This document shows positions 1-62,734 of a stretch of DNA of 64,000 nucleotides, in pieces (position 1 is the stretch's first letter; every line of letters starts with the position of its first letter). The stretch covers positions 62,001 to 126,000 of the forward strand of contig JAIYBC010000025.1 of assembly GCA_027488845.1 (NCBI GenBank). Direction: 5' to 3'. This stretch comes from Verrucomicrobiales bacterium (GTDB lineage Bacteria > Verrucomicrobiota > Verrucomicrobiia > Limisphaerales > UBA9464). Below the pieces are notes generated by a model, which did no database searches, was not told where the DNA came from, and saw nothing but the letters and a program-made list of their open reading frames with translations. The position numbers and the translations under genes are program-made.

Positions 1-2112
1 ATTGCCGACCAAGGTTCCGACTTTGGCGATATGACCGGCTTTGTGCCGACGCTTTTGGGCGGCCTTGTTGAGGGCTTCCGCCCGCTTCCGCGTCTGGGTC
101 AGAATCAGGTTGTCCTCGGGATACTTCATCGCCTTTCCCGTCCAGTCGTTGAGGAGGCCGCGAAAAGCTGACAGGTCCGTGTCGGCGATCACGATCTGCG
201 AGCGACGGAGCCGCTTCTCGCCCAGTCCCCACTCGCTCGGGTTCCATCTAGTGGAATTGACCCGGTCGTCGCGGAAGAGAATCCGCTTCACTCCCGTGGC
301 AAGCACGGCGGCGAGCGTCTCCCGAATCTGACGCTCCATCCGGATGCGCATCCGGTCCAACGGCAGGACGAAACGGCGCTTGAGCCCGAGCGGATCCGGA
401 TTCGGGGTCACCACAAGTCCAGGAAGCTTGAGCTTGGAGACCGGATTCCAGTTGGGGGCACTCCGAAAGACCTGCACATCCCGCCCCTCCAGACGGAAGA
501 AGCGGAGGTCAATGGCCCAACGCGGGGGTCCCTGCTGCGGCTCCTCCTTCCGAATCCTGAAACTCGCGAATGGCCCCTTCGTCTGGCTGGCCTTCTCTTT
601 CGCGGCCGATTGTTCCTGGTCCTTGGACGCTTTGCTGCGTTCACGAGCGCGACGGGACTCCTCCTTGGATTCTTCCTTCTGCCCGGGATGCTCACCCCAT
701 TCCTTCCGCTTGTCCGCCCGAGACTTTTCCTTGGAGTTCTCGTGGGTGCCCGAGGTCTTCTTCTCGACAATCGGATCGGCCCTCGCCGGTTCGGGAGACG
801 GTTCTTGGTCCTGGGCCTTCAGGTGTTCGCGGCTCTGCGCCTTGGCCGCTGCCTTCTTCTGAGTCGCCTCGAACGCCTTTTTCAGCCGGGCTTCGAGGTG
901 GATCATTCTCCGCTGCGCCTCGATGATAGTTCGCAGTTGCTCGCGGGCTTCCTTCCTTCCCACCCTGATCGCCTCGGCGAACTCGGCCAACTGCCGCTCA
1001 TTCTTTACGCCATCGGACCTCCGGAACTTGGGCGCCGCGGAGTAAACGGCGGCGGCGATCTGACGGGCCGAAAGTCCGGAGTCCTGCGTGACACTGGCGA
1101 CCGCCTCCAGCACCTCCGCCCGGGTCAGTGTCCCTTGGTGCTTTCCCATCGCCGTGCGGACTGCTTCAGCGAGTAAGCCCAGTTCGTTGTTCGGTCCCAC
1201 GCGGCGCGTGGTGGCCCCCCTCAGCCGAGTCACATCCTTTTCTGTCCAACCGAACTCGTTGCCGACCTCCCGCCATTGGGGAAAGAGCTGCTCCCTCGGA
1301 ACGTGCTCCTTCGCCTGCCGGGTCAACCGGACCGCCTCTTCGGCTGCCACCGCGCTGTAGTCTCCCATCGCCTTGCAGCGGGCGAGGACCTCCTTCCGGC
1401 GTGTCGAAAACCGGTCAATCAGATCCGGGTTCACCCCCTCAACCTCGAACCAACTCTCCACCTGCTTGACGGGCAACTGGAGATCCCGACGAAGCAGCGA
1501 CGCCAGCTCACACCGCTGGAGATGACCGACGGTCTTTTTGAACTCGTACAGGGCTTTGGTCCAAAGCGCCCCGGTGGTCATGTCCTCCCGAACCCCGACG
1601 TTGAAACAGACCACATGGCAGTGGAGCTGCGGGTCCTGAGCCCGGCTGGTACCGTGCTGGAACATCGCGTAGCAGAAGCCGACCTTTTCCCGAATCCGCC
1701 CGCCCACGCCGCGCCGGGAGTAACCGGCAAACCCCTCCATCATCGACAACGCGGTTCGGACGGATTCCTCGAACGCTCGCTCGATGGCGCGTCGTTCATC
1801 CGCCGAAGCCAGCGCCCAACACACGCTGACGGATTTGGGCACGGAGAAGGTCAGATCCCAGCCGGGAACCCGCTTGTGGTAGCCGGACCGTTGGCCCGCG
1901 TTCTGGACGAAGGCGACCTTGCCGCTGGGGGAGAAACCCGCGAACAGGTTTCGGAAGTGCTCGGCCTGCACCTGGCCGGTCAGACCCATCAGTTCGGCTC
2001 CCTTGCCGTGCCACTGTCCGGGAGGCTCGCCGCCGTTCACGTAGTAGTCCTCCCGCGCCAGATTGAGGTAGTAGTCAGCCGAGCCAATGGAGGTTTTGAG
2101 GATCGAAAGCAT
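1..2112 (-). CDS. MobF-family (TrwC/TraI-like) conjugative relaxase, C-terminus beyond window
   Basis: Nicks oriT and carries the transferred strand. The minus-strand frame is open for 704 codons from ATG at 2112 to the window edge. The N-terminus MLSILKTSIGSADYYLNL has tyrosine pairs at residues 14-15 and 23-24, like F TraI. A GWDLTFSVPKSVSV motif sits at 84-97, and the metal-binding histidine triad is H153, H164, H166 in a DPQLHCHVV context. The relaxase domain spans roughly 1-310. Residues about 395-520 are a Lys/Glu-rich coiled-coil-like stretch where MobF helicases normally carry Walker A; no GxxGxGKT is visible. The last ~100 residues (DW...NLILTQTRKRAEALN) resemble the part of MobF helicases after the Walker motifs. 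No good Shine-Dalgarno is seen; the start is chosen from the conserved N-terminus. Confidence 0.9.
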   Translation of the reverse strand, partial: MLSILKTSIGSADYYLNLAREDYYVNGGEPPGQWHGKGAELMGLTGQVQAEHFRNLFAGFSPSGKVAFVQNAGQRSGYHKRVPGWDLTFSVPKSVSVCWALASADERRAIERAFEESVRTALSMMEGFAGYSRRGVGGRIREKVGFCYAMFQHGTSRAQDPQLHCHVVCFNVGVREDMTTGALWTKALYEFKKTVGHLQRCELASLLRRDLQLPVKQVESWFEVEGVNPDLIDRFSTRRKEVLARCKAMGDYSAVAAEEAVRLTRQAKEHVPREQLFPQWREVGNEFGWTEKDVTRLRGATTRRVGPNNELGLLAEAVRTAMGKHQGTLTRAEVLEAVASVTQDSGLSARQIAAAVYSAAPKFRRSDGVKNERQLAEFAEAIRVGRKEAREQLRTIIEAQRRMIHLEARLKKAFEATQKKAAAKAQSREHLKAQDQEPSPEPARADPIVEKKTSGTHENSKEKSRADKRKEWGEHPGQKEESKEESRRARERSKASKDQEQSAAKEKASQTKGPFASFRIRKEEPQQGPPRWAIDLRFFRLEGRDVQVFRSAPNWNPVSKLKLPGLVVTPNPDPLGLKRRFVLPLDRMRIRMERQIRETLAAVLATGVKRILFRDDRVNSTRWNPSEWGLGEKRLRRSQIVIADTDLSAFRGLLNDWTGKAMKYPEDNLILTQTRKRAEALNKAAQKRRHKAGHIAKVGTLVGN

Positions 2113-2665
2113 CGCGATTCGGAGGGCCTTCGGTCCTCCGCGAGTGCTGTCTTTCCGGGACGGGAAAAGCGGACAAAAACCCGACTCTTCTGGAAAAGGT
2201 CCTTGGTTAACAGTGCAAGCCGCTATCCGGGAGCAACTTGAGCAGAAAAATCGGTCGAATGTTTACAAGGCTGTTAACACGGCAACCCGCAGCGAGATAA
2301 AGCCTTGAAGCCTGCGGCGGTCGTTTGCGTTAACTGCACCGAAGGTGCCTCAGGTGTGTATTCTTCTTTTGGAATCTTGGAACTGGGGATCGGGGAATCA
2401 CGGTAGTCGGGGTCTTGGTTCTCTGGATATCAATTCTGTTGTCCATTCCGGTATCGGGCTTCCGGTCGTACTCGGGACATTCAGGAGGTGGCGATGGGGG
2501 TCGCCACTCGGGTCGGGACTTGGGCGGATGTTGGAAGTCGGTGGGAGTCTGCGGAGGGCGATTCTGGGGTGTGATGTCGAAGCTGGGGCGAGGTCAGTCT
2601 TGAACCGTTCGGTGAACACCCGGCGTTGCGCCGGGTGGTTCGTCGGTGACTGGATCGCGCGATTG
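2113..2665. other. Intergenic region, candidate oriT
   Basis: No convincing gene is present in these 553 bases upstream of the relaxase start, a common place for oriT. An inverted repeat CGGAGG-N9-CCTCCG lies at 2120-2140. Three copies of the palindrome GTTAAC lie at 2206-2211, 2273-2278 and 2329-2334 (spacings 67 and 56). No nic consensus was recognised, so the oriT assignment is positional inference. Confidence 0.35.
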
Positions 2666-3274
2666 TCAGTATCGGACGTGTCTCGAAATCACGATCAACA
2701 CCCGTCGTCCCGATTCCGTTTCGACCTCCTTGATGAACCAGTCTTGGGGATTGAGGAACCGCTCGGGGTCGAACAGGAAACCCTCGTGGTGGTGCGCCAT
2801 CAAAAACTGGTAGGCGTCGGGGTAGCGGAGCCTCATCACCTCCACCGCTGCTTGTCTCCGAAGCGTCGCCGAAGTGGTCTGCAAGGGGCGGTCGAAAACG
2901 TAGGCTTCCCGATCACGGACCTCGTCAGCCTCCAGGTCTACGAGGTCGAGCTTTTCGTCGTCGCGAACCGTGTAGTAAACCCTCATCCAGTTCTCGACAG
3001 TGTCCCCTCCGAGCCTTTGCACAATCTCGATCACGTTTCGGAGATCTCTGGGCGAAATTGAAGGTGCCGTTCCGACGACCGTTGCTATCCCGAAATGATC
3101 TCCTCTCGGCCAGAACCAGGCCGATCCGTCCTTGGCCTCATCCCAGTTGAGTACTTCATCCGCTGTCAGCCTGCGCCGAAACGGGCCGTGATCCCGGAAT
3201 GAGTACCCTCCAAAGGTTCCAAGGTTGAATGGGCAGATTCTTCGTTCGGTCTTCGTCTTCTCGGTCGTTTCCAT
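2666..3274 (-). CDS. Hypothetical accessory protein A (paralogue of protein B at 4032)
   Basis: A 202-residue protein of unknown function. The start METTEKTKTERR is chosen because GGAGATGAA precedes it and its paralogue begins METIETT. It shares with the 196-aa protein encoded at 4032-4622 the patterns LGTFxG(Y/F)xFR, LTxDEVLNWD, FWPxG, a YPxAY segment and an FDxxRFLxxxxW C-terminal block, so the two arose by duplication. It has no signal peptide or membrane segment and is acidic and probably cytosolic. It sits just downstream of structured repeat copy 1, with the long hairpin about 50 nt upstream of its start codon. Confidence 0.7.
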   Translation of the reverse strand: METTEKTKTERRICPFNLGTFGGYSFRDHGPFRRRLTADEVLNWDEAKDGSAWFWPRGDHFGIATVVGTAPSISPRDLRNVIEIVQRLGGDTVENWMRVYYTVRDDEKLDLVDLEADEVRDREAYVFDRPLQTTSATLRRQAAVEVMRLRYPDAYQFLMAHHHEGFLFDPERFLNPQDWFIKEVETESGRRVLIVISRHVRY

Positions 3275-3305
3275 TTCATCTCCGTCGTTGGATTCGCCAC
3301 CCAGA

Positions 3306-3773
3306 CCCAAGAAAGGCCTTCCCCGGGGAGAGGGGGGCGTGTTTACACCCGCGTGTTGAAACACCCCCCTCTCCCCTGGGAAGGACGACAACACAGCCAG
3401 CCCGAAGGGCTGACCGCTTGGACGAATGGCGAAGTCAACGCGGGAAGAAGCGACGGCGAATGAAATGGCAAGCTGAGTGACAGCTCCGCTGGCACGGGCT
3501 TGCTCATTCGGCGGCGCGCCGCGTTGCGGAGCGGCAACAGGGCTCCCGCCCTGGGCGGGAATCCTTTCAGGCCACGGCGAAGTCCACGGGGTCGGAACGG
3601 CTTTCCGGAGCGGAGGCGCTCAAGGTGGAGCGCAGGTGCGAACCCGTGGGTGAGCAGCCGAGCAATACCTTGAACGCCGGGAGTGGAGGGAAGTCGTTCC
3701 GACAGCGGAGGGGGAAACCCCGGAGCGACCGGGCGAAGCCGGTAACACGGGGCCCGCCATCGGCGGGCTGCCT
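3306..3773. repeat. Structured intergenic repeat, copy 1
   Basis: First of four related ~450 bp repeats, each upstream of a small minus-strand gene. It contains a long inverted repeat at about 3325-3376 (GGGGAGAGGGGGGCGTGTTT opposite AAACACCCCCCTCTCCCC). Further blocks shared with the other copies follow (CAGCCCG/CGGGCTG region, GGCGGCGCGCCGCG, GGGAGCGGAGG-like). The final hairpin is GCCCGCC-ATC-GGCGGGC at about 3752-3768. This copy has diverged most, especially in its right half. There is no protein-coding potential beyond shadow frames. Confidence 0.85.
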
Positions 3774-3800
3774 TTGGCAACGAAACGTCTCTCGGCCGGG

Positions 3801-3822
3801 AAAAATGCCCGCCGAAGCGGGC
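3801..3822 (-). terminator. Rho-independent terminator after the 3829 gene
   Basis: On the minus strand: perfect stem GCCCGC, loop TTCG, stem GCGGGC, then an A and five T residues (3801-3805 as A on the plus strand). It begins 7 nt after the stop codon of the 63-residue gene. Confidence 0.8.
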
Positions 3823-3828
3823 CAACCC

Positions 3829-4020
3829 TCAGTCGGGTTTCGTTCGTTGGAGATGCTTCTGATCGGACAGCCACCGGTCCAGCGCCAGGACCGAGCCAAA
3901 GACGTGATCCACCAGTTCGAACAGGTCGGCTTCGATGAAGCTCTTCCGGTTTTCAGCCGTGTACAGGTGATCGATGACTCGTTCGAGGTGCTTCAAGACC
4001 TCAGGGTCCACTCGTTGCAC
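3829..4020 (-). CDS. Small hypothetical protein, 63 aa, coupled to protein B
   Basis: It starts at GTG 4020, with an excellent AGGAGG six to seven bases upstream and only about 11 nt after the stop of the 4032 gene, so the two form one transcription unit. The product (QRVDPEVLKHLERVIDHLY... WLSDQKHLQRTKPD) is predicted all-helical, soluble and without Cys or signal. Function is unknown. A strong intrinsic terminator follows immediately, which supports it as the last gene of the unit. Confidence 0.65.
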   Translation of the reverse strand: MQRVDPEVLKHLERVIDHLYTAENRKSFIEADLFELVDHVFGSVLALDRWLSDQKHLQRTKPD

Positions 4021-4031
4021 AGGTCTCCCTC

Positions 4032-4622
4032 CTATTGTGGTGCGATGATCAGAGCTTTGCGGTCGCCGATCTCGACTTCGTCCACGGACCACACGGGCGA
4101 ATCGAGGAACCGATCCTCGTCGAAAATCAGCCCATCACATTGGGACTTCTCCCACGCGGCGTACGCCTCGGGGTAATACAGCTCAAACAACTCGAAGGCG
4201 GCATCCTTTCTCAACCCGATGAAATGGTCGCCCTCGAACACGTGGAGGTTCTGGTCCTCCACCTGTTCCCCGGTGAGCTGGTTCAGGTAAGTCCCGAGCC
4301 CGTTCACGGCGTGGTGAATCCTCAGGTAGTTGAGCGTCGAATCGTCCCCCAACTCCTGAAGCACTCGGTCGAGATCCAAAAGGTCCTGACCAGTCACCGC
4401 CGAACGGTCCTTGAACAGCAACGAGACCCCCGCGTTTTCTCCTGAGGGCCAAAACTCGGCCTCTCCGTCTGCGTCGTGATCCCAGTTCAACACCTCGTCC
4501 CCGGTGAGGATCCGGTCGATGGCGGAACTCTCCCGAAAGTTGAAGCCCTCGAATGTCCCTAGGTCGAATTGAAGCGCGTATCCTCCTTTCTCCGGGGTGC
4601 CGGTTGTCTCGATTGTTTCCAT
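4032..4622 (-). CDS. Hypothetical accessory protein B (paralogue of protein A at 2666)
   Basis: A 196-residue protein of unknown function beginning METIETTGTPEKGG, with GGAGG four bases upstream of the ATG. It shares LGTFEGFNFRE, LTGDEVLNWD, FWPSG, VFEG..., YPEAYAAW and FDEDRFLDSPVW-type blocks with the 202-aa protein at 2666-3274. No catalytic motif, signal peptide or membrane segment is visible. Structured repeat copy 2 lies upstream, with its hairpin at 4674-4724. It is followed in the same unit by the 63-aa gene. The first residues (METIETT) are nearly the same as those of the JAB protein at 5995, as if leader and first codons were copied together. Confidence 0.75.
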   Translation of the reverse strand: METIETTGTPEKGGYALQFDLGTFEGFNFRESSAIDRILTGDEVLNWDHDADGEAEFWPSGENAGVSLLFKDRSAVTGQDLLDLDRVLQELGDDSTLNYLRIHHAVNGLGTYLNQLTGEQVEDQNLHVFEGDHFIGLRKDAAFELFELYYPEAYAAWEKSQCDGLIFDEDRFLDSPVWSVDEVEIGDRKALIIAPQ

Positions 4623-4649
4623 GTTTCCTCCATTAGTCAGTTGCCCCAC

Positions 4650-5100
4650 CCGAACCCGAAAAAGGCTTTCCCGGGGAGAGGGGGGCGTGTTTTCGCCTAC
4701 GTGCTGAAACACCCCCCCTCTCCCTTGGGAAAGACGACAACACAGCCAGCCCGCAGGGCTGACCGCCGGGAGGGACGGCGGAGTCAACGCGGGAGAAAGC
4801 GACGACGAATGAAACGTCAAGCGGAGTGACAGCTCTGCTGGCACGGGCTTGCTCATTCGGCGGCGCGCCGCGTTGCGGAGCGGCAACAGGGCTCCCGCCT
4901 CGGGCGGGAATCATTTCAGTCCGCGATGGAGTCCTCGGGACGGAACGACGTTCCGCAGCGGAGGCGGTCAAGATGGCAGCGCAGCGTAGCGAGCACCTCT
5001 TGACGGCCGGGAGCGGAGGAATGGCGGTCTGTCAGCGGAGGGGAACCCGGAGCGACGGGGCGCAGTCGGAAATACGGCACCCGGCTCGTCCGGGTGACCT
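4650..5100. repeat. Structured intergenic repeat, copy 2
   Basis: Closely related to copies 3 and 4. The long hairpin is 4674-4724 (GGGAGAGGGGGGCGTGTTT against AAACACCCCCCCTCTCCC). Its end hairpin reads CACCCGG-CTCGT-CCGGGTG at about 5077-5097. This is a different sequence from the GCCCGCC/GGCGGGC of the other copies but has the same fold and place, consistent with selection on structure. Confidence 0.85.
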
Positions 5101-5145
5101 TGAGGGCGAACATCGCCGGGAAACGGATTCACCGATCCTGACAAG

Positions 5146-5171
5146 GCCGCCGTGCCGGATGGCACGACGGC
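5146..5171 (-). terminator. Terminator-like hairpin after the 5179 gene
   Basis: An 11-bp stem (GCCGTCGTGCC / GGCACGGCGGC on the minus strand, one G-T pair) with a 4-nt loop lies about 8 nt after the stop codon, followed by a weak T-containing tail (CTTGTC). Confidence 0.6.
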
Positions 5172-5178
5172 TCCATGA

Positions 5179-5457
5179 TCAGTAGTCCTCAGGCAACAAT
5201 ATCGTGGTCACCGACCTATCACCCTCCGTGATGATCCAGAACTTTCGGCCCTGGCGGTCGGAATAGGCAGAGAGAATCCGGCAGCCCTCCACGAGGGACC
5301 GATCGTTCTCCTGCGCGTCCTCGGGACAAACCTCCCCCCAATTTCCACGTGAATGGTTCAGGATCGCCTGTGCGATGTCCTCCGATTGAATCGCCCCGAG
5401 CGCGTTTGGTGTAATCACCACCCTCCCCAGTCGGACCGTGAATGAACTCGTTACCAT
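5179..5457 (-). CDS. Small plasmid/ICE-type protein ending in ITEGDRSVTTILLPEDY
   Basis: A 92-residue protein starting MVTSSFTVRLGRVVIT, with GGAGG five bases upstream of ATG 5457. It belongs to a small family carried on plasmids and integrative elements with a conserved LGxVVxTPxA start and an (F/I)WIITExxRSxTT(I/V)LLPE(D/E) end. A second member is at 40325 in this window. Such proteins are often database-labelled as restriction-related, but I see no catalytic motif. It is soluble and its function is unknown. Structured repeat copy 3 lies upstream. Confidence 0.8.
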   Translation of the reverse strand: MVTSSFTVRLGRVVITPNALGAIQSEDIAQAILNHSRGNWGEVCPEDAQENDRSLVEGCRILSAYSDRQGRKFWIITEGDRSVTTILLPEDY

Positions 5458-5480
5458 AAATGCCTCCAATGTTTGCCCCG

Positions 5481-5930
5481 CCCGACCCCAAAAAGGCTTT
5501 CCCGGGGAGAGCGGGGCGTGTTTTCGCCTACGTGCTGAAACACCCCCGCTCTCCCTTGGGAAAGACGACAACAGAGCCAGCCCGGAGGGCTGACCACTGG
5601 GAGGAATGGCGGAGTCAACGCGGGAGAAAGCGGCGACGAATGAAACGGCAAGCGGAGTGACAGCTTTGCTGGCACGGGCTTGCTCATTCGGCGGCGCGCC
5701 GCGTTGCGGAGCGGAGACAGGGCTCCCGCCCGGGCGGGAGTCATTTCAGGCCACGACGGAGTCCCCGGGACGGAACGGCTTTCCGCAGCGGAGGCGGTCA
5801 AGATGGCAGCGCAGCGCAGCGAGCACCTCTTGACGGCCGGGAGCGGAGGAATGGCGGGCCGTCAGCGGAGGGGAACCCGGAGCGAACGGGGTGGAGTCGG
5901 AAATGCAGCGCTCGCCAGCGGCGGGCAGCC
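5481..5930. repeat. Structured intergenic repeat, copy 3
   Basis: Same architecture as copy 2. The long hairpin at 5505-5555 carries a compensatory change: C5512 pairs with G5548, where copies 1, 2 and 4 have a G-C pair at that position. The fixed distance of about 48 nt to the downstream start codon matches the other copies. The end hairpin (GCTCGCC-AGC-GGCGGGC) is at about 5910-5926. Confidence 0.88.
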
Positions 5931-5946
5931 GTGTCGAAAGCACAGG

Positions 5947-5976
5947 GCCAACGCCGAAGGTTACCTCGGCGTTGGC
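5947..5976 (-). terminator. Terminator-like hairpin after the 5995 gene
   Basis: The inverted repeat GCCAACGCCGA / TCGGCGTTGGC (11 bp, 8-nt loop) begins about 18 nt beyond the stop codon of the JAB-domain gene on the minus strand. The tail is only weakly T-rich (CCTGTGCTTTC). Confidence 0.55.
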
Positions 5977-5994
5977 TCCAAAGGAAATTGCTCC

Positions 5995-6507
5995 TTAGAA
6001 CAGGCGCTCCGCGAACGAGTAGTGTTTCCTTTCGTTCACGATGACGTGGTCTTTGATTTTGATTCCGAGGAGCCTTCCGGCCTTCCTGATTCGCGCCGTC
6101 GCTTTCACATCCTTGTCGCTTGGGAAGACATCGGGACCCGGATGATTGTGACCAATGACGATGGAAATCGCGCCCTGCAAGACTGCTAGTTGAAAGATCT
6201 CCCGAGGGTGACTTTGGCAGGAATCAGCAGTTCCTGTTGCGACGACTGCATACGCAATTATTTGATCTCCGCCACCGAGATAAATACAGATGAGATGCTC
6301 CCTTGAATTGTCCGGCAGAACCCGGCGGATGAATTCGGCGGCCTCGCGCGAATTCTGAATTCGTGATCCTGCCTCCAGCTCGTTGCGATATACGGCGGTT
6401 ACTTCCCGAACGGTCGTTATTTCAAACCGCGCAGCTTGGGAAGAATCCACCTCGCCCGTTGTTGTTTCGCACTCTTGATTGTTTTCTGTTGTCTCAATCG
6501 TTTCCAA
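5995..6507 (-). CDS. RadC-type JAB/MPN domain protein (short form)
   Basis: A 170-residue protein with a C-terminal RadC-like JAB domain. The motif HNHPGPDVFPSDKDV (HxH-x7-S-xx-D) gives the zinc ligands. The upstream helix-hairpin-helix of full RadC is absent, as in many plasmid or phage RadC-like proteins. The start is assigned to TTG 6507, preceded by GGAG. It makes the protein begin (M)ETIETTENN, matching the METIETT start of protein B; the next in-frame ATG would delete conserved sequence. Structured repeat copy 4 lies upstream. The biochemical role of RadC-like JAB proteins is not settled. A full-length RadC is at 28893. Confidence 0.8.
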   Translation of the reverse strand: METIETTENNQECETTTGEVDSSQAARFEITTVREVTAVYRNELEAGSRIQNSREAAEFIRRVLPDNSREHLICIYLGGGDQIIAYAVVATGTADSCQSHPREIFQLAVLQGAISIVIGHNHPGPDVFPSDKDVKATARIRKAGRLLGIKIKDHVIVNERKHYSFAERLF

Positions 6508-6535
6508 TTTTACTCCGTTAGTCAGAGCCCCCACC

Positions 6536-6916
6536 CGAACCCCAGAAAGGCTTTCCCGGGGAGAGGGGGGCGTGTTTTCACCTACGTGCTGAAACACCCC
6601 CCCTCTCCCTTGGGAAAGACGACAACACAGCCAGCCCGGAGGGCTGACCGCTGGGAGGGATGGCGGAGTCAACGCGCGCCGCGTTGCAAAGCGGGGACGC
6701 GGCTCCCGCCCCAGGCGGGAAACGATTCAGGCCACGGCGGAGTCTCCGAGACGGAACGGCTTTCCGCAGCGGAGGCGGTCAAGATGGCAGCGCAGCGTAG
6801 CGAGCACCTCTTGACGGCCGGGAGCGGAGGAATGGCGGTCTGTCAGCGGAGGGGAACCCGGAGCGACGGGGCGGAGTCGGTGAAACCGCGCCCGCCAGCG
6901 GCGGGCTTCCTTTTCT
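6536..6916. repeat. Structured intergenic repeat, copy 4 (internal deletion)
   Basis: Like copies 2 and 3, but it lacks about 95 bp between GTCAACGCG and GCGCGCCGCG, apparently a deletion at a short GCG repeat. The long hairpin is conserved at about 6560-6610, roughly 50 nt upstream of the TTG start of the 5995 gene. Confidence 0.85.
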
Positions 6917-6917
6917 T
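6890..6917 (+). terminator. Terminator-like hairpin at the end of repeat copy 4
   Basis: GCCCGCC-AGC-GGCGGGC (6890-6906) followed by a T-rich tract TTCCTTTTCTT on the plus strand. On the minus strand the same stem lies about 30 nt after the 447-residue gene's stop but without a T tail, so the plus orientation fits better. It would end any plus-strand transcript of the repeat. Confidence 0.5.
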
Positions 6918-6938
6918 AATTGAACCCCTGGGAGCCGA

Positions 6939-8282
6939 TCAGGGTTCCATCAACTTCATCTCGACCAGGACGGGGGCAACCTCGATGAGAAGCTTCTGGC
7001 GTTCCGCCGCGAGGGCGACGCGGGCCGGATCCTTCAGAAAGGCGCTGAGGTTCTGATTCTTGTAGGCAATGTCCGACCACTTGGGCCGGTCATTGTAGTA
7101 ATTGCACGCGATGTAGACCAACGCCTTCAATCCGGCGGCGGTTTCGTTGAGAGCGCCCGACGCCTTGAGCGCGGACAACGAAAGCGGCTTCTTTTGAATC
7201 TCTTTGAAGGCGCCGGATCCGGCCGCCGGTGTCCACAGGCCGGGTGTCAGGAGTGGAGCCAAGGCGGCTTGCACGGCTGGGTCTGAAGCCCGTTGGCGGA
7301 GCCGGGTCCGGGTTGCCTCGTCCAGGGTGTCCTTTGCCGCAACGTCGGCCTTGGCGTCTTCGAGTTTCGTCTGCGCCTTTCGCTGCAAGGATTCCCGCTC
7401 GGCCTGGGCCTTGATCTCTGCGGCTTCATCAATCACGCGTTGGGCTTCCGCTTTCGCTTGGTCGATGAGCCGCTGGGCTTCCGCCTGTGCAAGGGCGGCC
7501 GTCCCCTCGATTTTCGCCTCCGTGGTCTTCTTGACGATGGCCTCCTGCCGCGCCGCTATCTCCGACTGATTCAGGCGACGGATGGCTTCGTCGAGAGTGG
7601 GTGAGTTCGCGGTCAAGGCCTCCCCCGTCACCTTGACTTTGGACTCGGTGACGAGGCCTGCGAGCAACGTCCGGGCTTGGGTCGCCTTGCGCTTCTCAGG
7701 GTCCGCCCAGAGAGCGCCATTCTGTGCGGTCACCAACAGGTCGGCTCCAGGTTCGAAGGTGGTTCCGGCGGCTCCGATGATCTGCTGTTCGACGCGACGC
7801 ACCCCCTCCAGTCGGGTGACGACCTCATTCACTGTAACAACACCAGGAATCTCGCTTTCGTAGAGTCGCCGGGCCTGGGCAACCAGATCGGGGTGAAGGG
7901 CTACTTTCCTCCCGGCCTCGTTGGACTTGAGGTCAGCGGCCTCGGTTGCGAGGGCCTTGGTTTCCGCCAGCAGTTGAAAGAGGACGTTGGTCGCACTTCG
8001 TACCTGGGCGAGGACTTCGTCCTGTCGGTTTCGGGCGAGCGCCAACTTCTCGTTCTCGGCGGCCTTTTTCCTGTCGAGTTCGGCCTGGGCCTGTTGCGCC
8101 GCCAATTCCGCAACCTGTCGCTCCACTTTGGCCTTGTCGCTCCGAAGGTAGTAGATCACTCCGACAAGGCTGCCCACGCCGATGAGCGCGAGCACCAAGA
8201 GTGCGGCAAGCACGGTGCCGAGGGAGATTCCTTTTCGTATTTCGCGCACTTCGATGACGGTTTCTTTGCGTTTGTCAGCCAT
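6939..8282 (-). CDS. Membrane-anchored coiled-coil protein next to the coupling gene
   Basis: 447 residues. A short cytosolic N-terminus is followed by one transmembrane helix at about residues 19-46 (ISLGTVLAALLVLALIGVGS...). Long Ala/Gln/Glu-rich coiled coils follow at about 48-130 and 240-320, including an AQAEAQRLIDQAKAEAQRV repeat, and then a globular C-terminus. No enzyme motif is visible. It lies 40 bp downstream of the coupling-protein gene on the same strand, so a structural role in the transfer apparatus is plausible but only inferred. I do not recognise the family. Confidence 0.7.
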   Translation of the reverse strand: MADKRKETVIEVREIRKGISLGTVLAALLVLALIGVGSLVGVIYYLRSDKAKVERQVAELAAQQAQAELDRKKAAENEKLALARNRQDEVLAQVRSATNVLFQLLAETKALATEAADLKSNEAGRKVALHPDLVAQARRLYESEIPGVVTVNEVVTRLEGVRRVEQQIIGAAGTTFEPGADLLVTAQNGALWADPEKRKATQARTLLAGLVTESKVKVTGEALTANSPTLDEAIRRLNQSEIAARQEAIVKKTTEAKIEGTAALAQAEAQRLIDQAKAEAQRVIDEAAEIKAQAERESLQRKAQTKLEDAKADVAAKDTLDEATRTRLRQRASDPAVQAALAPLLTPGLWTPAAGSGAFKEIQKKPLSLSALKASGALNETAAGLKALVYIACNYYNDRPKWSDIAYKNQNLSAFLKDPARVALAAERQKLLIEVAPVLVEMKLMEP

Positions 8283-8322
8283 ATCTCTTCAGAATTGGGT
8301 TTGAACGGGGCGGTTATGAAAA

Positions 8323-10368
8323 TCACTTATCGCGGCGGCGTCCTCGACGCACCGGGAGCGGTGGGTCGTCCGAGGACGTCGAAGGCGAGTTGGCAGGTCC
8401 AGTGGACTTGGACTTCCCAGCGCTTCGTCTCGATTTCGGAGGCGGTTCGGGCTCTGGCTTGGTCTCAGGCGGTGGACAGAATTTGCGTTCTTCCATTGGG
8501 TGCCACGGCCAAAGAGTCTGCTTTTTGACATCCGAGACCACATCCACCGCAATCACCTTGAGATTCCATTTGCTGGAAATCTCTCTGGGATAGGCATCCT
8601 GCAGTAGCATCCGATTCAACCGAGACCTCTCCTCGCCGACGGGATTCGAGTGAATCAGTTGCACGGTTTCGGGCGCAAGGTGGACGCCAGAAAACCGGGC
8701 GCCGCCCCAGATGGAGTCACCCGCAAGGACAGTGTTCAAGTCCTCTACCAGCGCCTGCTTCAAGCCCGGTGAGATCACCGCGTTCTCATTCCAATCGGTC
8801 AAACCTGCTCGGGTGGTCTCCCGCAACCGTCCCCAAAGGTAGGCCGACAAATTGGACCCTTGGTCCTTCAGCCGGGTCGCGATGGCCACGTCATGGAGCA
8901 AGCTCTGGGCGGAGAGAAAGGGCGTCAACTCAGGCCTGGGCAGCCATCCCAAGACGTCATCAAACGATCTCTGAAGGATGACCGTTTCCCGGATGGTTGG
9001 AAGGTCGCAGATTGCCTCGTAGGTCCCACCGCCAACTGGGAACGGCAGATCCAGGAAAACCGATGCCAGGAACATGGAACGTTCCTGCACGCTGTACTGA
9101 ACCGTGGTCGAATTGCCGCTGCCCGTCGAATAGCTGACGGTGGTCTCCTGATGCCTGACCTTGTGGAAATGGTGCTCGGCCCACTCGGCGGTTTTGTGTC
9201 CACCCGCCCGCAGGAACATCTTGTGGGCGCAGTCTCCGAGTATCTCGTTTGCCTTTTCCTGTCCGTAGACATCTATGAGTCCTTCGACGCTTTGGATTCC
9301 CAACAGCACCGAAGCCCCCTTTGAACGACCTTGGTTCACGAACTCGTGCATGCACTCGACCTTTTGCATCGCCCGAAACTCGTCCAGAACGAACCAATGA
9401 CGGGGCGGAAGTGAGTCGGGGCGGTTCAGGATTTCTTGGGTTAGTGCCTTCAGGAGGATCGCATTTAGCGGCCAAAAGCTTTCTTTCAGTGCCGGACTGT
9501 TTCCCAGCACAAGGACCCCTGGCTTTTCGAGAAAGGTGGCGATATCGAATTTTCGCCCCGTCGTGTTGGCGCTCCAGAGGGCCGCCACGGCGGAATACTT
9601 GCCAATCTTCGACGCGATCGTGGACAGAACGCCGGGCGAGTTTCGCTTGTCGCCCAGCAATTCCTCAACGGCGTCTGCCGACGGACGATACCGTCCCGTG
9701 ATTGCTTCGATATGCTTCCGCTTTCCTAGCGCAACGAGGAGATCCCTCAATGTCCATTGGTCGCGGTGGATCGCATTCAGCGCATTGATAACGGCCTCCA
9801 CGATGATCCGCGCATTATCGTTGAAATAGGGCGCAGTCGAGTTGCGCTCCTCGGGAATCAGCAGATGCGCAAAGGCCGTCGCCATGGTGGGGGTCTGCAC
9901 CGCCTCAGCGATGTTCCAAACTGCCGACCGGCTGTCCAACGGGTTCAGGATATAGAAGTTCTCATCCTCGGGACGCAGTCCCAGGGACGCCAACATCGGG
10001 ACCGTGTTGGACTTGGCGTCAAAAACGATCAACTGCTCAGGCCTGGCCCGCCCGGTCTTGAAACGGGGGGCGATAGACTTCAGAAACAGCTCGATGGCCA
10101 CGCTCTTCCCGCTTCCGACCGTGCCGCAGACCAGAAAATTCTTGGTGGCTTCCGATGCGGGGAGATTTCGCATTGCCCAGAAGACGTAATCTTCATCGAA
10201 GTCCTTGGCGCAATTGGGCGGCGGTTCCTGATCGGATGAGTGATCTTCTACGTCCTTTGGGAAAAGTAGGTCGAAAACCGAGACTCCTTTCCCACCTGCG
10301 GGCTTTTCCAATGGCTCGCTGTTGGTGAACAGATTCCAAAACGAGTAGTTGGGTTTGTCGTCACTCAA
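8323..10368 (-). CDS. TraD/VirD4-like conjugative coupling ATPase (lacks own membrane anchor)
   Basis: 681 residues. It would link the relaxosome to the secretion channel and pump DNA. Walker A GTVGSGKS is at 82-89, Walker B HWFVLDEFRA at about 325, and a QxxxGLIDVYG coupling-protein segment follows. The C-terminus is Pro/Lys/Ser-rich and disordered. Unlike classic TraD/VirD4/TrwB it has no N-terminal transmembrane helices: MSDDKPNYSFWNLF leads straight to the ATPase. Its gene overlaps the stop of the upstream zinc-ribbon membrane-protein gene by 4 nt (ATGA type), suggesting coupled translation and a complex of the two. Confidence 0.88.
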   Translation of the reverse strand: MSDDKPNYSFWNLFTNSEPLEKPAGGKGVSVFDLLFPKDVEDHSSDQEPPPNCAKDFDEDYVFWAMRNLPASEATKNFLVCGTVGSGKSVAIELFLKSIAPRFKTGRARPEQLIVFDAKSNTVPMLASLGLRPEDENFYILNPLDSRSAVWNIAEAVQTPTMATAFAHLLIPEERNSTAPYFNDNARIIVEAVINALNAIHRDQWTLRDLLVALGKRKHIEAITGRYRPSADAVEELLGDKRNSPGVLSTIASKIGKYSAVAALWSANTTGRKFDIATFLEKPGVLVLGNSPALKESFWPLNAILLKALTQEILNRPDSLPPRHWFVLDEFRAMQKVECMHEFVNQGRSKGASVLLGIQSVEGLIDVYGQEKANEILGDCAHKMFLRAGGHKTAEWAEHHFHKVRHQETTVSYSTGSGNSTTVQYSVQERSMFLASVFLDLPFPVGGGTYEAICDLPTIRETVILQRSFDDVLGWLPRPELTPFLSAQSLLHDVAIATRLKDQGSNLSAYLWGRLRETTRAGLTDWNENAVISPGLKQALVEDLNTVLAGDSIWGGARFSGVHLAPETVQLIHSNPVGEERSRLNRMLLQDAYPREISSKWNLKVIAVDVVSDVKKQTLWPWHPMEERKFCPPPETKPEPEPPPKSRRSAGKSKSTGPANSPSTSSDDPPLPVRRGRRRDK

Positions 10369-12134: not shown

Positions 12135-12698
12135 ATGGATTCGCTAGCCTCGATGGTACAGGCGTATCGATCCGCGCAGACTCTCGAAGCAAAACGCGCG
12201 GCTTCTGAAGCCATTATCCGGGAAATGCACCCACGGCTGTGGCACTTTTTGAGGGTTCGACTGAATTCAGACCACGAGACAGAAGACGTTCTCCAGGACA
12301 CGCTTGTCGGGATTTTCAAGAGTCTTCCACTCTTTCGAGGAGAGTCATCTTCGGATGTAAGCGGGTTCTGTTTTGGGATCGCAAAGCACAAGCTGAACAC
12401 GTTCTTGGCGCGCAAGGGCCGGAATCTGGAGGACAGCGGAATTGATAACAACTTGCTGGATTTGCTCGAATCCCTGGTTGCGGTGGAGCCTGACGACCCG
12501 TTCAAGCATGAGGAGCTTCGTCGGGCCTTGAACATTCTTAAGGCGTCCAGACCACAATGTATTCGCTTCTTTGAGCTGCGTTTTGTGCTGTCCTTGACCT
12601 ACAAGGAAATGGGCGAGGTCCTTGGCATCGATAAAGAAGACTCCGTGAGATACCTTGTGGAGAGCTGTTTGGATCGGGCCAGAAGGCTGTTCACGTAA
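12135..12698 (+). CDS. ECF-like RNA polymerase sigma factor
   Basis: 187 residues. Region 2 is MHPRLWHFLRVRLNSDHETEDVLQDTLVGIFKSL at about 36-70, with the typical DxEDVxQDT signature. The region 4 helix-turn-helix is LTYKEMGEVLGIDKEDSVRYLVESCLDRARRL at the C-terminus. It directs RNA polymerase to alternative promoters. It is divergent from the 11979 gene and followed 12 bp later by a small acidic gene that could encode its regulator; no classic anti-sigma domain is visible there. Confidence 0.85.
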   Translation: MDSLASMVQAYRSAQTLEAKRAASEAIIREMHPRLWHFLRVRLNSDHETEDVLQDTLVGIFKSLPLFRGESSSDVSGFCFGIAKHKLNTFLARKGRNLEDSGIDNNLLDLLESLVAVEPDDPFKHEELRRALNILKASRPQCIRFFELRFVLSLTYKEMGEVLGIDKEDSVRYLVESCLDRARRLFT

Positions 12699-12710
12699 AG
12701 GAATATCGAT

Positions 12711-13082
12711 ATGGCTGAAGACGCCTCTAGCGTGGAAGCAATGCTCAAGCTGCTCGGTGAACGAGTTCAGTCGGGCGTAGCCAAATTGCATCCGCCCAGC
12801 ACCAAGACCTTGGCTGCCGTAGATCAAATCGTCACCGAGCAATGGCAGCGAGAGCAACAGGTCAACCAGATGCTTTCCCAAGGTGATCCTTCCAAGGGTC
12901 AGAATCCGACGCAGGAGCAGTCATTGGGTCAGGCTCACGAGGCAAAACTCGAAAAGGATCTCTCGGAGGAGAAAGCCCCCGGAAAGAAGGAGCGGTCACC
13001 GTCTCAAAACAGGTCCAAACCTACCGGTCAAAGTAATGACCAAGGTCACGATCACGACCCAGGCCACGACCACGGGCACTGA
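12711..13082 (+). CDS. Small hydrophilic protein with His/Asp-rich tail, downstream of sigma gene
   Basis: 123 residues. The N-terminal half is helical; the C-terminal half is charged and disordered, ending GQSNDQGHDHDPGHDHGH, a plausible divalent-metal-binding tail. It is cotranscribed with the sigma factor (12-bp gap). Given the metal-resistance cargo it could sense metal and act on the sigma factor, but that is speculation. No membrane segment is present, so it is not a standard membrane anti-sigma. Confidence 0.65.
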   Translation: MAEDASSVEAMLKLLGERVQSGVAKLHPPSTKTLAAVDQIVTEQWQREQQVNQMLSQGDPSKGQNPTQEQSLGQAHEAKLEKDLSEEKAPGKKERSPSQNRSKPTGQSNDQGHDHDPGHDHGH

Positions 13083-40324: not shown

Positions 40325-40609
40325 CTAAAAATCCTCGGGCAGCAATACCGTCGTGCGACTGCGGTTGGCCTCGGTGATGATCCAGAAGCGGCCGCCATTG
40401 GCGGCGCGGAATACGGACAGCCTGCGGAAGCCCTCCAGCGCCCGGCATTCGGGTTGGCGGCGCGCGAAATCCTCCAAGTCCCCGTCGTCACCGCGCATAT
40501 GCCGGAGTAACGCCTCAGTGACCTCGTAGGACGCCAGACTGGCCTGCGCCCTGGGCGTCATCACGACGTTGCCGAGCCGACGAATCGGTCCCTGTTCCAT
40601 ACAGACCAT
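40325..40609 (-). CDS. Small plasmid/ICE-type protein, second ITExxRSxTTxLLPED member
   Basis: 94 residues from ATG 40609 (GGAGGACAG immediately upstream); the frame is open further upstream but without a better start. RRLGNVVMTPRA at the N-terminus and GGRFWIITEANRSRTTVLLPEDF at the C-terminus match the protein at 5179. It lies 94 bp after the large methylase-helicase gene on the same strand, a common neighbourhood for this family. Confidence 0.8.
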   Translation of the reverse strand: MVCMEQGPIRRLGNVVMTPRAQASLASYEVTEALLRHMRGDDGDLEDFARRQPECRALEGFRRLSVFRAANGGRFWIITEANRSRTTVLLPEDF

Positions 40610-40703
40610 CTGTCCTCCTGTGGGAAACCACTGCCGGACCATTCTGCGGATCGCCTCCGCGACGTGAACTACCATACCTGCCTCCATCAAAAATCGGTCT
40701 GCC

Positions 40704-43700
40704 TCACCCAATCGCACCCTCGTCCTGCTCCTCCGTCGCCATCTGGCTGGAAGCCTGGCTCTTGGTCAGGTCCAACGCGTCGGCGATTTCCTGCTGCCGC
40801 AGGGACAGCGCCGCCAAGCGGTCTTCGTATTCATAGGGTTGGCCGGACTGGGCGTTGAGTTCCGTCAGTCGTTTGCGGGTGTCCGCAATCCGCCCGGTGA
40901 TCCCGGCGGCAACCTCGTCCAACGACTGCACGGCGTGTTCCACGGACCGCATGGTCCCGTGGGCGGAGCTGCCGAACTTCGCCCGGTGAACCGAGCTTCC
41001 CTTCAGCACGATTTCCGGCCCGCCCATGAAGTTGTCCGCCACGAAGAGCTGGAACCCGGCAAAGGTGCCGACCCGTCGTTCGACCTGGCGTCCCTTTACC
41101 CGGTCGCCCTGGCGGGCCAGCAGTTCCCCGGCAATCCCCCGGTCCCGGATTTCCTGACCGTCCAGTTCGATGACGAACCGGTCACCATGGGTATCCTGAC
41201 GCACGGTGAGGTCCGACTGCACCTCGGCGAGGCGTTTCTCCAGGCGGGGAATCTCGTCCGTGTAGTGCCGGATCTCGGAACGGAGCCGATACTGCGTGTC
41301 CCGGTGTTGGGTGCGAAGACGGCTCAATCGGGCGACTTCCGCATCCACCCCAGCCTTCTCGATGACCAGCGGATTGCCGGAAGCGATGGCCTTCACCTCC
41401 GCGTAGGTCAGCGCCGCACCGTCGATGTCCTCAATACGGCGCAGGTCGCTGTCGCCATTCATTACCTGGGCGATGAAGCGGGCCTTCGTCTCCAAGGTCT
41501 GCCACATGTAGGCGTCGAACGAACCTTCGGTCACGTAGCGGTAAATCTGCACCTCGGGATGGGTGTTGCCCTGCCGGAGGATGCGGCCGTCCCGTTGCTC
41601 CACGTCCGCCGGTCGCCACGGCGCATCCAGGTGGTGCAAGGCGATGAGGCGTTCCTGCACGTTGACCCCGGTGCCCATCTTCTGGGTGCTGCCGAGCAAT
41701 ATGCGGATGCGTCCCGCCCGAACTTCGCGGAAGAGGGCGAGTTTGGCCGCGTCGCTATCGTGATCCTGGATAAAGGCGATCTCCGACTCGGGAACCCCAC
41801 GAGCAATCAGCTTCGAGCGCAGGTCTTCGTAAACGGAGAACCCTTTCCCTTCGGTCGGGGTGGACAGGTCGCAGAAGGCGATTTGAGCGGCCTTTTCGGC
41901 GGCGGTCTCCCGCCAGATGCGTTCGAGGTTGGCTGCCGCCTGGTTGACCTTGCTGTCCGGGGGATCGCGCAAATCGGCGCGGAAGAGACGAAGGTCCAAA
42001 GCCGCTTTCCTCCCATCCGTCGTGACCAGAAGCATGTTGTCCGTGCGCGGGTCCACGCGGCCGGAACGGAGCGCTTCGGCCCGCTGCACCAGCGACTGAA
42101 CGATCTCCTTCAGTTCCGGCGAACAAGGGGCGTTCGTCACGATGGGCTTTCCGGTCTTCAACCGGGGCACGGGCAGGTTGAGCGTCTTCTGAGTCTGGAT
42201 GTCAGTGACCTGCCGAAACTGCTGCATGAGTTCCGGAACGTTGATGAACCGGGCAAAACGAGTGTTCAGTCGGTAACCTGCGCCATCGGGGGACAACTCC
42301 ATTGCTGTGACCGGTTCGCCGAAGGTCGCGGCCCACGAATCGAAGTGATCGACCTGCAACGTCTTCAACGCGGGCAGTTGGAGATACCGCTGCATGGTAA
42401 ACATTTCGGCCACGCTGTTGGCGATGGGCGTCCCGGTGGCGAACACCACGCCGCCCCCACCGTTCACGCGCTGCACATGCTGCACCTTGAGGAACATGTC
42501 GAAGGCGCGCTGGGAGGCGGTCTGAGGAAGCCCGGCAATGCGGGTCATCTTGGAGACGTAGAACAGATTCTTGAACGCGTGCGCTTCATCCACAATCAGG
42601 CGGTCCACGCCGAGTTCCTCGAAGGTGAGGGTGTCGTCCTTGCGTTCATCGGCCATGAGGTCCTTGAGCTTGCCCTCCAGCTTCTTCTTCGCCCGTTCCA
42701 GTAGCTTGACGATGCGGGAACCGCTTTCGCCGCGTTGCTGTTCGATGGCCAGCGCGAGTTCGCGTAGCTGCGCCTGGATGAACTCCTCCTGCGAAGCGCG
42801 GGACAGCGGAATCTTCTCGAAGCCGGAATGAGTGACGATGACGGCATCCCAGTTTCCAGTGGCGATGCGACTCATGAGCGTCTTGCGCCGCTCCTTCTCA
42901 AAGTCGTCCTTGGTGGCGACGAGGATGTTCGCGCCCGGATACAGGGTCAGCAGTTCCGAGGAGAACTGTCCGAGCATGTGGTTCGGCACCGCGATGAGCG
43001 GCTTTCGGGCGAGTCCGAGCCGCTTCAGTTCCATCGCAGCGGCCACCATCGTGTAGGTCTTCCCGGCTCCCACGACGTGGGCGAGCAGGCAGTTCGGCGT
43101 TTGCAGGATTCGCCAGACGGACGCCCGCTGGTGCGGGCGCAAGGTGATGACCGGACTGGCTCCGGGGAGCGTCAGGTGATCGCCGTTAAAGGTGCGTGGC
43201 CGGAGATTGTTGAACTCGCGGTTGTATTTCCGGACCAGACGTTCCCGGCGGTCGTCGTCCTGCCACAGCCACGCCTTGAAGCGTTCCTTGAGCTTCTCCT
43301 GCTTGTCTCGGGCCGCCTCGGTGGCCGGACCGTTGACCACGTCTCGGTTGTTCTGTTCGTCCCGGTCATAGACCGTTGGCGTGCGAAGATTCATGGCGTC
43401 CTCGATCAGCTCCAGCGCGCTGCGCCGGTCGGTGCCGAACTCGGTCGTGTTGGCGACGGAAGATTTCGCGTTCCAACCGGCTTGCACCACCCAAAGGCCA
43501 AGCTGGGGGACGTGGTTGATGGTGACGCCGCGTTCGCCAAGCAGTTCCTCGACGAAGAGGGCGAGGTCGTTCGCTGGAATCCAGGTGCTACCCAATCTCG
43601 CGTCGATCTCGGCGGCGGTCAGGTCTACCGGCTGGACCTGCTTTAGCGCCTCGATGTTCGTCTGGAACTGTTCGTCGCTAAGCACGGCAGCTTCGGCGAC

Positions 43701-61380: not shown

Positions 61381-62496
61381 TCACGCGTGTCCTTGGTAGG
61401 TGCCGTCGCCTTGAGCCTCCGTCGTCGCCGGAAGCGGCGCGGCGCTGTTGCCAGAGCTCGGAGCCGGAAACGGAATCACCCGCTGGGCTTCGGCCTGCTT
61501 CTCGTATTCCCCGAGGGAGGGAATGATGACGTGCGCGTGGCGGGCATAGGCGCGGTGGACCGCCTTGCTGTTGTGGCCGAGAGCCTGTTGGGCGAAGCGC
61601 TCGGGATACCCGGCGGACTTGGCGCGCTCCGCCCAGGCGTAGCGGTAGGAGTGCAAGGTCACCCCGGAGATCTTCAGTCCCCGGCAACGCTGCTTGAACT
61701 CGGTGGCGCGGTCGGCGGCGCGGACGCCGCGCAGGTAGGGGAAGAGCGGTCCACGGGCCGGAAGGGAACGGAGCACGGCGGCGACGGTTTCGTCGAACCG
61801 GACGGCCGCGTGCTCACCCGATTTCTTGCGGGTGTAGCTGATGATGCGGTTGGGCCAGTCGATGTTGTCCGCCTCCAGGAGCGCGATGTCGGTCTGGGAG
61901 GCGCCGAGATGCCACGCCAATTCGTAGAACGCCCGGCGCTCCTCATTGCCTTCGCGGTCGATGATGGCCCGGTGCTCGTCGTGGGTGATGGCGCGCTTGG
62001 ATTGGTAGCGGACGGCGGGCCACTGCTTCTTGGGGATGACCGGCCATGGGAGCCAGCCCATGTCCAACGCGAAGTTGTGGAGTCGGCGCAAGTAGACGTT
62101 GGTGGACACCGTGCCGACTGCGAGGACGCGCAGGAAATGCTCGGCCTTGGTTTCCACGACGGGCAACTGGCGCAGCGGCGCGAAGGCGCGGTCCTTGATG
62201 GCCGTGTCCCAACGGTGCCGGGTGTCGCCCTTCTTGGTCCGCACCAGTTCCGCCATGACGAACTGCCAATCGCGGGTGGCGGCGGCGGAATCCCCGGCCT
62301 TCCAGTAGACGCGTGCCAGCTGGAGGCTGAAGGCGGGGGCGGTGTCGGTCTCGTTGCGCGCGGCGACGAGGCGGTAGGCCTCAGCCTTGTCGCGGGTGTG
62401 GAGGGACTCCTGTTTCTTGGTTTCGAGATCCTCGACGTAGTAGGTGCCCCAGCCACGGCGAAAGACCCGGTATCGCTGTTTCATCTCGATTCGCAT
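61381..62496 (-). CDS. Tyrosine recombinase / integrase
   Basis: 371 residues. The catalytic part shows HSYRYAWAERA (H-x-x-R) and LGHNSKAVHRAYA with the nucleophile Tyr. A beta-hairpin Lys is in ISYTRKKSG. The first catalytic Arg position reads LGASQTDIALL, so the usual R is replaced. A core-binding domain is N-terminal, and the C-terminus has a Pro/Ala-rich tail. Located 164 bp from the tRNA-Cys 3' end and on the same strand, it very likely integrates and excises this element. Confidence 0.88.
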   Translation of the reverse strand: MRIEMKQRYRVFRRGWGTYYVEDLETKKQESLHTRDKAEAYRLVAARNETDTAPAFSLQLARVYWKAGDSAAATRDWQFVMAELVRTKKGDTRHRWDTAIKDRAFAPLRQLPVVETKAEHFLRVLAVGTVSTNVYLRRLHNFALDMGWLPWPVIPKKQWPAVRYQSKRAITHDEHRAIIDREGNEERRAFYELAWHLGASQTDIALLEADNIDWPNRIISYTRKKSGEHAAVRFDETVAAVLRSLPARGPLFPYLRGVRAADRATEFKQRCRGLKISGVTLHSYRYAWAERAKSAGYPERFAQQALGHNSKAVHRAYARHAHVIIPSLGEYEKQAEAQRVIPFPAPSSGNSAAPLPATTEAQGDGTYQGHA

Positions 62497-62639
62497 GGAT
62501 TCGAGTATGGCCTGCGGTCCGAAACCCTGTGAACCCGTAGTGGGAGCGCGGTGAACGGGTAGTCGGGGTGTAGTGCCCGGGTAGCCGATTCACTGAAGAA
62601 TCCACTGAAGGTTCGGCCTCCCGTTTGGCGTAACTCTCT

Positions 62640-62690
62640 TAATCACAGCAACTAAGAGTTGGAGGCGAGGGTCGGAATCGAACCGACGAA
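62640..62690. other. Probable attachment site (tRNA-Cys 3' end)
   Basis: The element side of the tRNA 3' end (around 62650-62690, including the T-arm) is the inferred att core, because the integrase gene abuts it. A direct repeat of this segment should occur at the unseen left end of the element. Confidence 0.45.
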
Positions 62691-62734
62691 TGCAGCTTTT
62701 GCAGAGCCGTGCCTTACCACTTGGCTACCCCGCC
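62660..62734 (-). tRNA. tRNA-Cys(GCA)
   Basis: 75 nt with encoded CCA. The acceptor stem GGCGGGG pairs with CCTCGCC (one G-U), and the discriminator base is U, as in tRNA-Cys. The anticodon stem CGGCT/AGCTG encloses the loop CTGCAAA with anticodon GCA. The T-arm contains GGTTCGATTCC. It is intact and serves as the integration target. Confidence 0.95.

Follow-up and report, generated by a model that had tools for sequence, protein, structure and literature searches.

Repeated folded leaders in a Verrucomicrobiales mobile element and their predicted role as Frpo-like single-stranded-DNA promoters

A 64,000-nucleotide stretch of a Verrucomicrobiales genome (assembly GCA_027488845.1, contig JAIYBC010000025.1, positions 62,001 to 126,000; hereafter the window) carries an array of four small gene units on the minus strand of what appears to be a mobile element, each unit preceded by a copy of one long leader. 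The leaders share a conserved structure, with pairing kept through sequence change on both sides of a stem. Most likely the leader is an Frpo-like switch, a predicted function that would place the folded structure on the strand that serves as template for the genes rather than on their messenger RNA (mRNA).

Four copies of one structured leader

The four copies lie at the following positions, all given on the + strand, the presumed transferred strand.
3275..3775, + strand: leader copy 1, before a gene of 202 amino acids (aa)
4624..5101, + strand: leader copy 2, before a 196-aa gene
5460..5932, + strand: leader copy 3, before a 92-aa gene
6509..6913, + strand: leader copy 4, before a RadC-like gene

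The copies are 405 to 501 bp long, close to the 450 bp or so of the initial annotation, which had described one such repeat upstream of each minus-strand gene unit. Every leader ends at the start codon of its gene (ATG at 3274, 4622 and 5457, TTG at 6507), and in three of the four units the repeat extends a few codons into the gene, giving a METIETT-like start. Most of the gap between the minus-strand genes at 2.6-7 kb is leader sequence, with a GC content of 0.66-0.68 compared with 0.52-0.58 in the window genes behind the leaders. Copy 4 has an internal deletion of approximately 74 bases relative to the other three. A DNA search of the organism's own genome with this copy returned just the four window copies and their hairpins. 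Rfam covariance models identified no leader family; the sole gathering-level match in the window was a tRNA, alongside seven sub-threshold microRNA matches in 2000-8000. The earlier description of the region as a cassette array is retained for the array of units and not for the cassette, as no recombination site is shown (no search was made for site-specific recombination at them).

Pairing is maintained through sequence change

The + strand consensus of the 10 full copies from the window and other loci contains 125 pairs at -156.2 kcal/mol, and that of the minus strand 117 pairs at -118.3 kcal/mol. On the + strand, 14 of the 125 pairs are altered on both sides yet still paired, as against 6.0 ± 1.5 in shuffles; kinship among the sequences inflates counts of this kind. 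None of 500 shuffles reaches 14, and slid control structures give 1-5. These counts bear out the conserved cis-acting structure put forward previously, and the covariation analysis proposed along with it finds covarying homologues of the repeat in other genomes. Two individual changes had also been read correctly: in copy 3 a C5512-G5548 pair replaces G-C, the alignment column holding nine G-C pairs and one C-G, and the end hairpin of copy 2 is different yet paired (ACCCGG/CCGGGT versus GCCCGCC/GGCGGGC). A central GTCAAG/CTTGAC stem resembles parts of the related loci L078 and L081 and, more weakly, of L049.

Each copy has a hairpin close to the gene.
3317..3384, + strand: gene-proximal hairpin of copy 1
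4666..4733, + strand: gene-proximal hairpin of copy 2
5497..5564, + strand: gene-proximal hairpin of copy 3, which carries the C5512-G5548 swap
6551..6618, + strand: gene-proximal hairpin of copy 4

These window hairpins score 11-16 standard deviations above 60 mononucleotide shuffles. The initial annotation had a hairpin at a fixed 48-52 nt from the start codon; the base of the hairpin is at 39-43 nt, and the figure of 48-52 nt matches the inner stem. Nineteen leaders were surveyed with strict scoring: in 17 of them, 34-49 nt separate the hairpin base from the start codon, and in 15 the loop measures 13-16 nt, with stems of mostly 21-27 pairs. The 19 are not independent, since L049/L050 and L078/L081 are near copies and ten are of the window type. 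The survey omits L044, L045, L047, L048, L051 and L054, which have no long hairpin by eye, as well as L046 and L053, which are cut before the leader, and L090, where the gene was not located by the script. The geometry is kept where the hairpin sequence is unlike that of the window, namely in L078/L081 and in the L049/L050 leader before the unit 2 gene; the second L049/L050 leader is off-pattern, with the base at 17-20 nt and a loop of 3. On the sense strand, AAAACAC or a near match is seen by eye at the top of the stem and GGAA near its base in the window type, L036, L037 and L043.

As a separate observation, L049 contains hairpins at 7880-8000 and 9010-9100 in which the ribosome-binding site is paired to an arm further upstream (CTCCTAAAAAGCC and GGCTTTTTTAGGAG), an arrangement that could silence long but not short transcripts.

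Related leaders in other elements

A search beyond the window, as had been suggested, found matches to the leader DNA in four of 50 genomes of the family and eight of 320 genomes of the order. The family matches are the query genome, G032 and G036, plus 24 nt in G012. The order scan adds G240 as well as weak or partial matches in G095, G096 and G185; the short matches in G012 (24 nt) and G095 (about 35 nt) were not used. At the level of loci, nhmmer detected three full copies and one partial copy in L026, one copy in L027 and two in L035, with remote partial matches in L036 and L037. Different gene sets stand behind the leader in L026, L027 and L035. Similar leader parts were also identified by a shuffle test in L043 (z 7.2 and 9.2) and in L078 and L081 (z 5.2-8.2), two additional loci with a relaxase gene, which share a genome but lie on a different contig. 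The similarity of the latter two is seen in the shuffle test only, nhmmer with the window-type profile missing both at E ≤ 0.1. In L049 the similarity is weak (z 2.0-4.8, with three scores against window copies not above the best of 200 shuffles, and nhmmer at about 1e-4). Nothing usable came from plasmid and phage blastn or from scanning IMG/VR for the unit 2 family.

A scan of genome contigs placed the unit 2 family at 15 loci. Record titles assign 12 to Verrucomicrobia, mostly metagenome-assembled genomes, and the others are one Rhodopirellula, one Nitrospinaceae and one Planctomycetota. Seven of the 23 matches of a protein search were inspected: a long hairpin is present in L055, which is the window, and in L072, which coincides with L081; L056 has a terminator-like hairpin, and L057, L058, L074 and L076 have none by eye. 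Among the other 16, L069 (the same place as L078) and the window gene of L077 alone were inspected. Downstream of the unit 2 homologue in L043 (8797-9721) there are three 268-nt direct repeats, 71-95% alike.

A candidate transfer origin beside the array

The array is flanked on the same strand, with a TrwB-type coupling gene and a gene for a 447-aa protein upstream and a TrwC relaxase gene downstream. A candidate transfer origin (oriT) lies between the array and the relaxase gene.
1..2112, - strand: TrwC/MobF relaxase, extending beyond the window edge (PF08751, 1.7e-67)
2336..2358, + strand: oriT candidate, with hairpin 2336-2348, nine bases and a putative nick between 2357 and 2358
6939..8282, - strand: 447-aa protein without a Pfam match at E ≤ 0.01, a conserved neighbour immediately upstream of the array
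8323..10368, - strand: TrwB-type coupling protein (PF10412, 4.8e-48)

On the + strand the candidate reads as the hairpin GCACCGAAGGTGC, nine bases ending GGTGT, and then G. An equivalent arrangement is present at the same place in five elements (window, L026, L027, L035 and L053), including L035, where the hairpin is changed but still paired and the sequence runs AGTGT|C. A possible arrangement of this kind occurs in L046, and none was recognised in L078 and L081. The F nick region in the sequence record consists of a hairpin, nine bases, GGTGT and then GG; the F nick lies within that region, and the window candidate has the same geometry. The exact nine-base spacing with GTGT is found once per strand in the 64-kb window, the minus-strand occurrence lying in the end hairpin of copy 1.

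If the + strand is nicked at 2357/2358, the array would form the leading region, the incoming strand would be the template for all array genes, and the relaxase gene would enter last. Late entry of the relaxase gene is described as typical in PMC11541004. Of the ten loci where both were found, eight have the array genes and the relaxase gene on one strand with the array upstream (window, L026, L027, L035, L046, L053, L078 and L081); L036 and L047 are the exceptions.

The leaders as predicted single-stranded-DNA promoters

With moderate confidence, we propose that the leaders are Frpo-like single-stranded-DNA (ssDNA) promoters in the leading region of a MobF element. The + strand would enter the recipient first, as ssDNA, and each leader would fold. 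Its hairpin would provide duplex DNA on the upstream side of the start site, and the unpaired segment beside the gene would offer an already open template. RNA polymerase would start there and produce a short-leader mRNA for the RadC-like or another presumed anti-defence gene. Second-strand synthesis would then switch the promoter off, as it does for Frpo on F according to PMC9849209.

Frpo of F consists of two repeats, 89% identical and of about 550 bp, that end some 20 nt before their genes, and the window likewise has repeated long leaders. In F the transferred strand folds lower by 11 and 14 kcal/mol, and the four + strands of the window by 8-16. Frpo/ssi of F and ColIb-P9, of which F was compared here, precede leading-region genes oriented towards oriT, and the array genes would be oriented likewise towards the oriT candidate. 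No TTGACA/TATAAT was found in the window leaders, unlike in Frpo, and blastn of the leader against the plasmid collection, F included, gave no match. The proposed analogy is one of working, between unrelated sequences, and homology is not claimed.

The initial annotation had left it open whether RNA or DNA folds. The evidence leans to the + strand, that is to the template and not the mRNA strand, with a preference that is clear for whole-leader energy and strict hairpins but not in all tests. With DNA parameters the fold energy is lower on the + strand in all ten copies and z is lower in nine, the + strand z of -4.8 to -8.8 denoting a stable fold; with RNA parameters the energy is again lower in ten of ten. 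Strictly scored hairpins contain 19 G-T and one A-C on the + strand. When G-U is forbidden, the + strand consensus under RNA parameters places G-T at 12-15 pairs versus A-C at 2-4. The intersection of both strands' folds, for one alignment, gives 12 versus 3 pairs with RNA parameters and 4 versus 4 with DNA parameters.

A number of observations weigh against the ssDNA promoter proposal. Concerning the strand, z under RNA parameters is lower on the + strand in only four of ten copies, the 170 nt next to the gene folds better on the + strand in only nine of 19 leaders, DNA-parameter consensus folds with G-U forbidden slightly favour A-C (G-T at 1-4 versus A-C at 3-6), and a common-pair count on another alignment (4 versus 6 cells) does not favour the + strand. 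A looser hairpin score shows no clear strand preference (39 G-T versus 35 A-C), and under it the leaders w4, L35a, L37 and L078 are not above the shuffle maximum. Under this score the hairpins of seven leaders extended over 110-150 nt, and five of the seven hold 33 of the 35 A-C pairs; strict scoring is preferred for compact hairpins, a preference chosen after the looser result was known. Concerning transfer, the nick is placed from the motif only, and a hairpin followed by 8-10 bases and GTGT occurs nine times in the window (two on the + strand, seven on the minus strand). A search with two families of type IV secretion system ATPase found no VirB4- or TraC-type ATPase in the genome. By eye, the relatives L045, L047 and L048 are without such a leader, and L044, L051 and L054 have short or terminator-like hairpins. 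Under strict scoring the final 150 nt of the F Frpo repeats, unlike the window leaders, show no hairpin of this kind. Finally, a linear scan of 2100-8400, whose reach does not extend to boxes in mismatched stems, found no sigma-70-like -35/-10 sites, a weak result given that only 0.7 matches are expected in shuffles.

PMC11541004 describes a search for new Frpo candidates that used -35/-10 boxes. We tentatively suggest, as a rather improbable extension, that the leaders of Verrucomicrobia and their relatives form a separate class of ssDNA promoter, for which geometry takes the place of sigma-70 boxes and which an alternative sigma factor, such as the ECF-type factor of the element, might recognise. 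The geometry in question is a stem of mostly 21-27 pairs, a loop of about 14 nt, a spacing of about 40 nt between base and start codon and the central GTCAAG stem, and several lineages keep the hairpin geometry despite differing hairpin sequence. The link to this sigma factor is opposed by its orientation: with its gene on the + strand, an incoming + strand could not serve as template for it, and the factor would need to arrive as protein.

ssDNA promoters have been studied in enterobacterial plasmids. If the proposal is true, the Verrucomicrobia leaders would extend this strategy and could be searched for by structure, strand and position instead of sigma-70 boxes; they also point to the 92-aa and 196-202-aa families, unfamiliar genes with a presumed anti-defence role. 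Our literature search, which most subscription journals and all preprints lay outside, found no title on such leaders in Verrucomicrobia.

Alternative explanations

The main alternative is a leader RNA of the type found in pLS20, in which a folded mRNA leader would stop transcripts coming from upstream and be relieved by some signal after transfer. PMC8708921 reports EGeRS1 as five GC-rich repeats of 420-751 bp that contain inverted repeats and precede establishment operons, one of them with ardC, and finds that the tested EGeRS1 has no constitutive promoter and blocks read-through. The window leaders are similar in being several, GC-rich (richer than their genes) and rich in inverted repeats, before ardC and other establishment operons in pLS20 and before the array genes here, although the sequences were not compared. 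The sense-strand folds, like those of the + strand, lie well under the shuffles, and in six of ten copies RNA parameters put them further below than the + strand. The window copies further resemble intrinsic terminators or attenuators, with a GC-rich hairpin followed by a T-rich stretch on the mRNA strand, and terminator-like sites number 12 versus 7.2 ± 2.9 in shuffles; we keep the terminator reading within this alternative. The hairpin base at 39-43 nt from the start codon, however, leaves little room for a downstream promoter, the window leaders have about 350 nt of further conserved structure, and L036 and L043 have no T-rich tails. Moreover, the transferred strand of pLS20 is the non-template strand (PMC8708921), whereas the oriT candidate would make it the template here, and the + strand consensus fold is the better supported. 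We consider such a leader RNA possible, with a probability well below that of an ssDNA promoter.

A structured antisense RNA transcribed from the + strand of each leader could also control the gene. This would agree with the G-T excess of the RNA-parameter consensus on the + strand and with a terminator-like hairpin at 6890-6906, the + strand 3' end of copy 4, but the T tail of the 3'-end hairpin is poor in the other copies. An antisense RNA needs no constant distance between hairpin and gene start, yet most leaders keep one, and no promoter match was found, though few are expected. We regard it as unlikely.

Comparably unlikely is a single-strand initiation site, where second-strand synthesis would begin with primase or another replication protein loaded by the folded strand, which would have no promoter role. 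The title of Masai and Arai (1997), cited in PMC9849209, reportedly names Frpo as both promoter and primer site, and the counterparts of the central GTCAAG/CTTGAC stem in L078, L081 and, more weakly, L049 also fit this role; priming, on the other hand, does not call for a copy in every unit with comparable spacing to the start codon. The least probable explanation is a cassette or homology site, with the repeats serving mainly for gene gain by recombination, for although one leader stands before unrelated genes and the gene sets differ between L026, L027 and L035, recombination by homology needs sequence only, yet here pairing survives changes.

Genes of the array

The array consists of the following genes.
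2666..3274, - strand: unit 1 gene, 202 aa, no Pfam/NCBIfam match at E ≤ 0.01, a 36% identical paralogue of the unit 2 gene
~3829-4017, - strand: second small gene of unit 2, start codon uncertain
4032..4622, - strand: unit 2 gene, 196 aa, no Pfam/NCBIfam match at E ≤ 0.01
5179..5457, - strand: unit 3 gene, 92 aa, no Pfam/NCBIfam match at E ≤ 0.01
5995..6507, - strand: unit 4 gene, RadC-like JAB domain (PF04002, 2.7e-32)

An ArdC-like gene follows the unit 3 homologue in L035 and L036, and Pfam confirms that of L035. The array genes may be anti-defence genes, RadC-like here and ArdC-like in relatives, and may aid the element on entry into new cells. Structures predicted by AlphaFold for the proteins of units 3 and 2 (pLDDT 89) had no counterpart among PDB folds at E ≤ 0.001.

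A distant unit 3 homologue is found elsewhere in the window (40325-45818), following a 1704-aa protein with methyltransferase-like and SNF2/helicase matches; there is no long hairpin upstream at this locus. In L027, a 393-aa open reading frame that is 90% identical to part of the 1704-aa protein lies directly upstream of a fragment of the 447-aa gene and the array.

The surrounding element

Replication initiator and ParA genes are also present in the window, and an integrase gene (PF00589) adjoins a tRNA-Cys gene (61381-62734), likely the insertion site of the element. Together with the extracytoplasmic-function (ECF) sigma factor, these genes suggest an integrated plasmid-like element.
12135..12698, + strand: ECF-type sigma factor (TIGR02937, 7.4e-14), with homologues in L026 and L035

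In the window (12135-13082), L026 and L035, the sigma factor gene is followed by a conserved gene of 118-123 aa, and the two are possibly a regulator pair of the element. Several large efflux-type genes, of which one was tested (PF00873), are located in the window at 17692-57873 and in L017. To the left of the window, L017 also contains, by eye, an apparent metal P-type ATPase and type I restriction genes.

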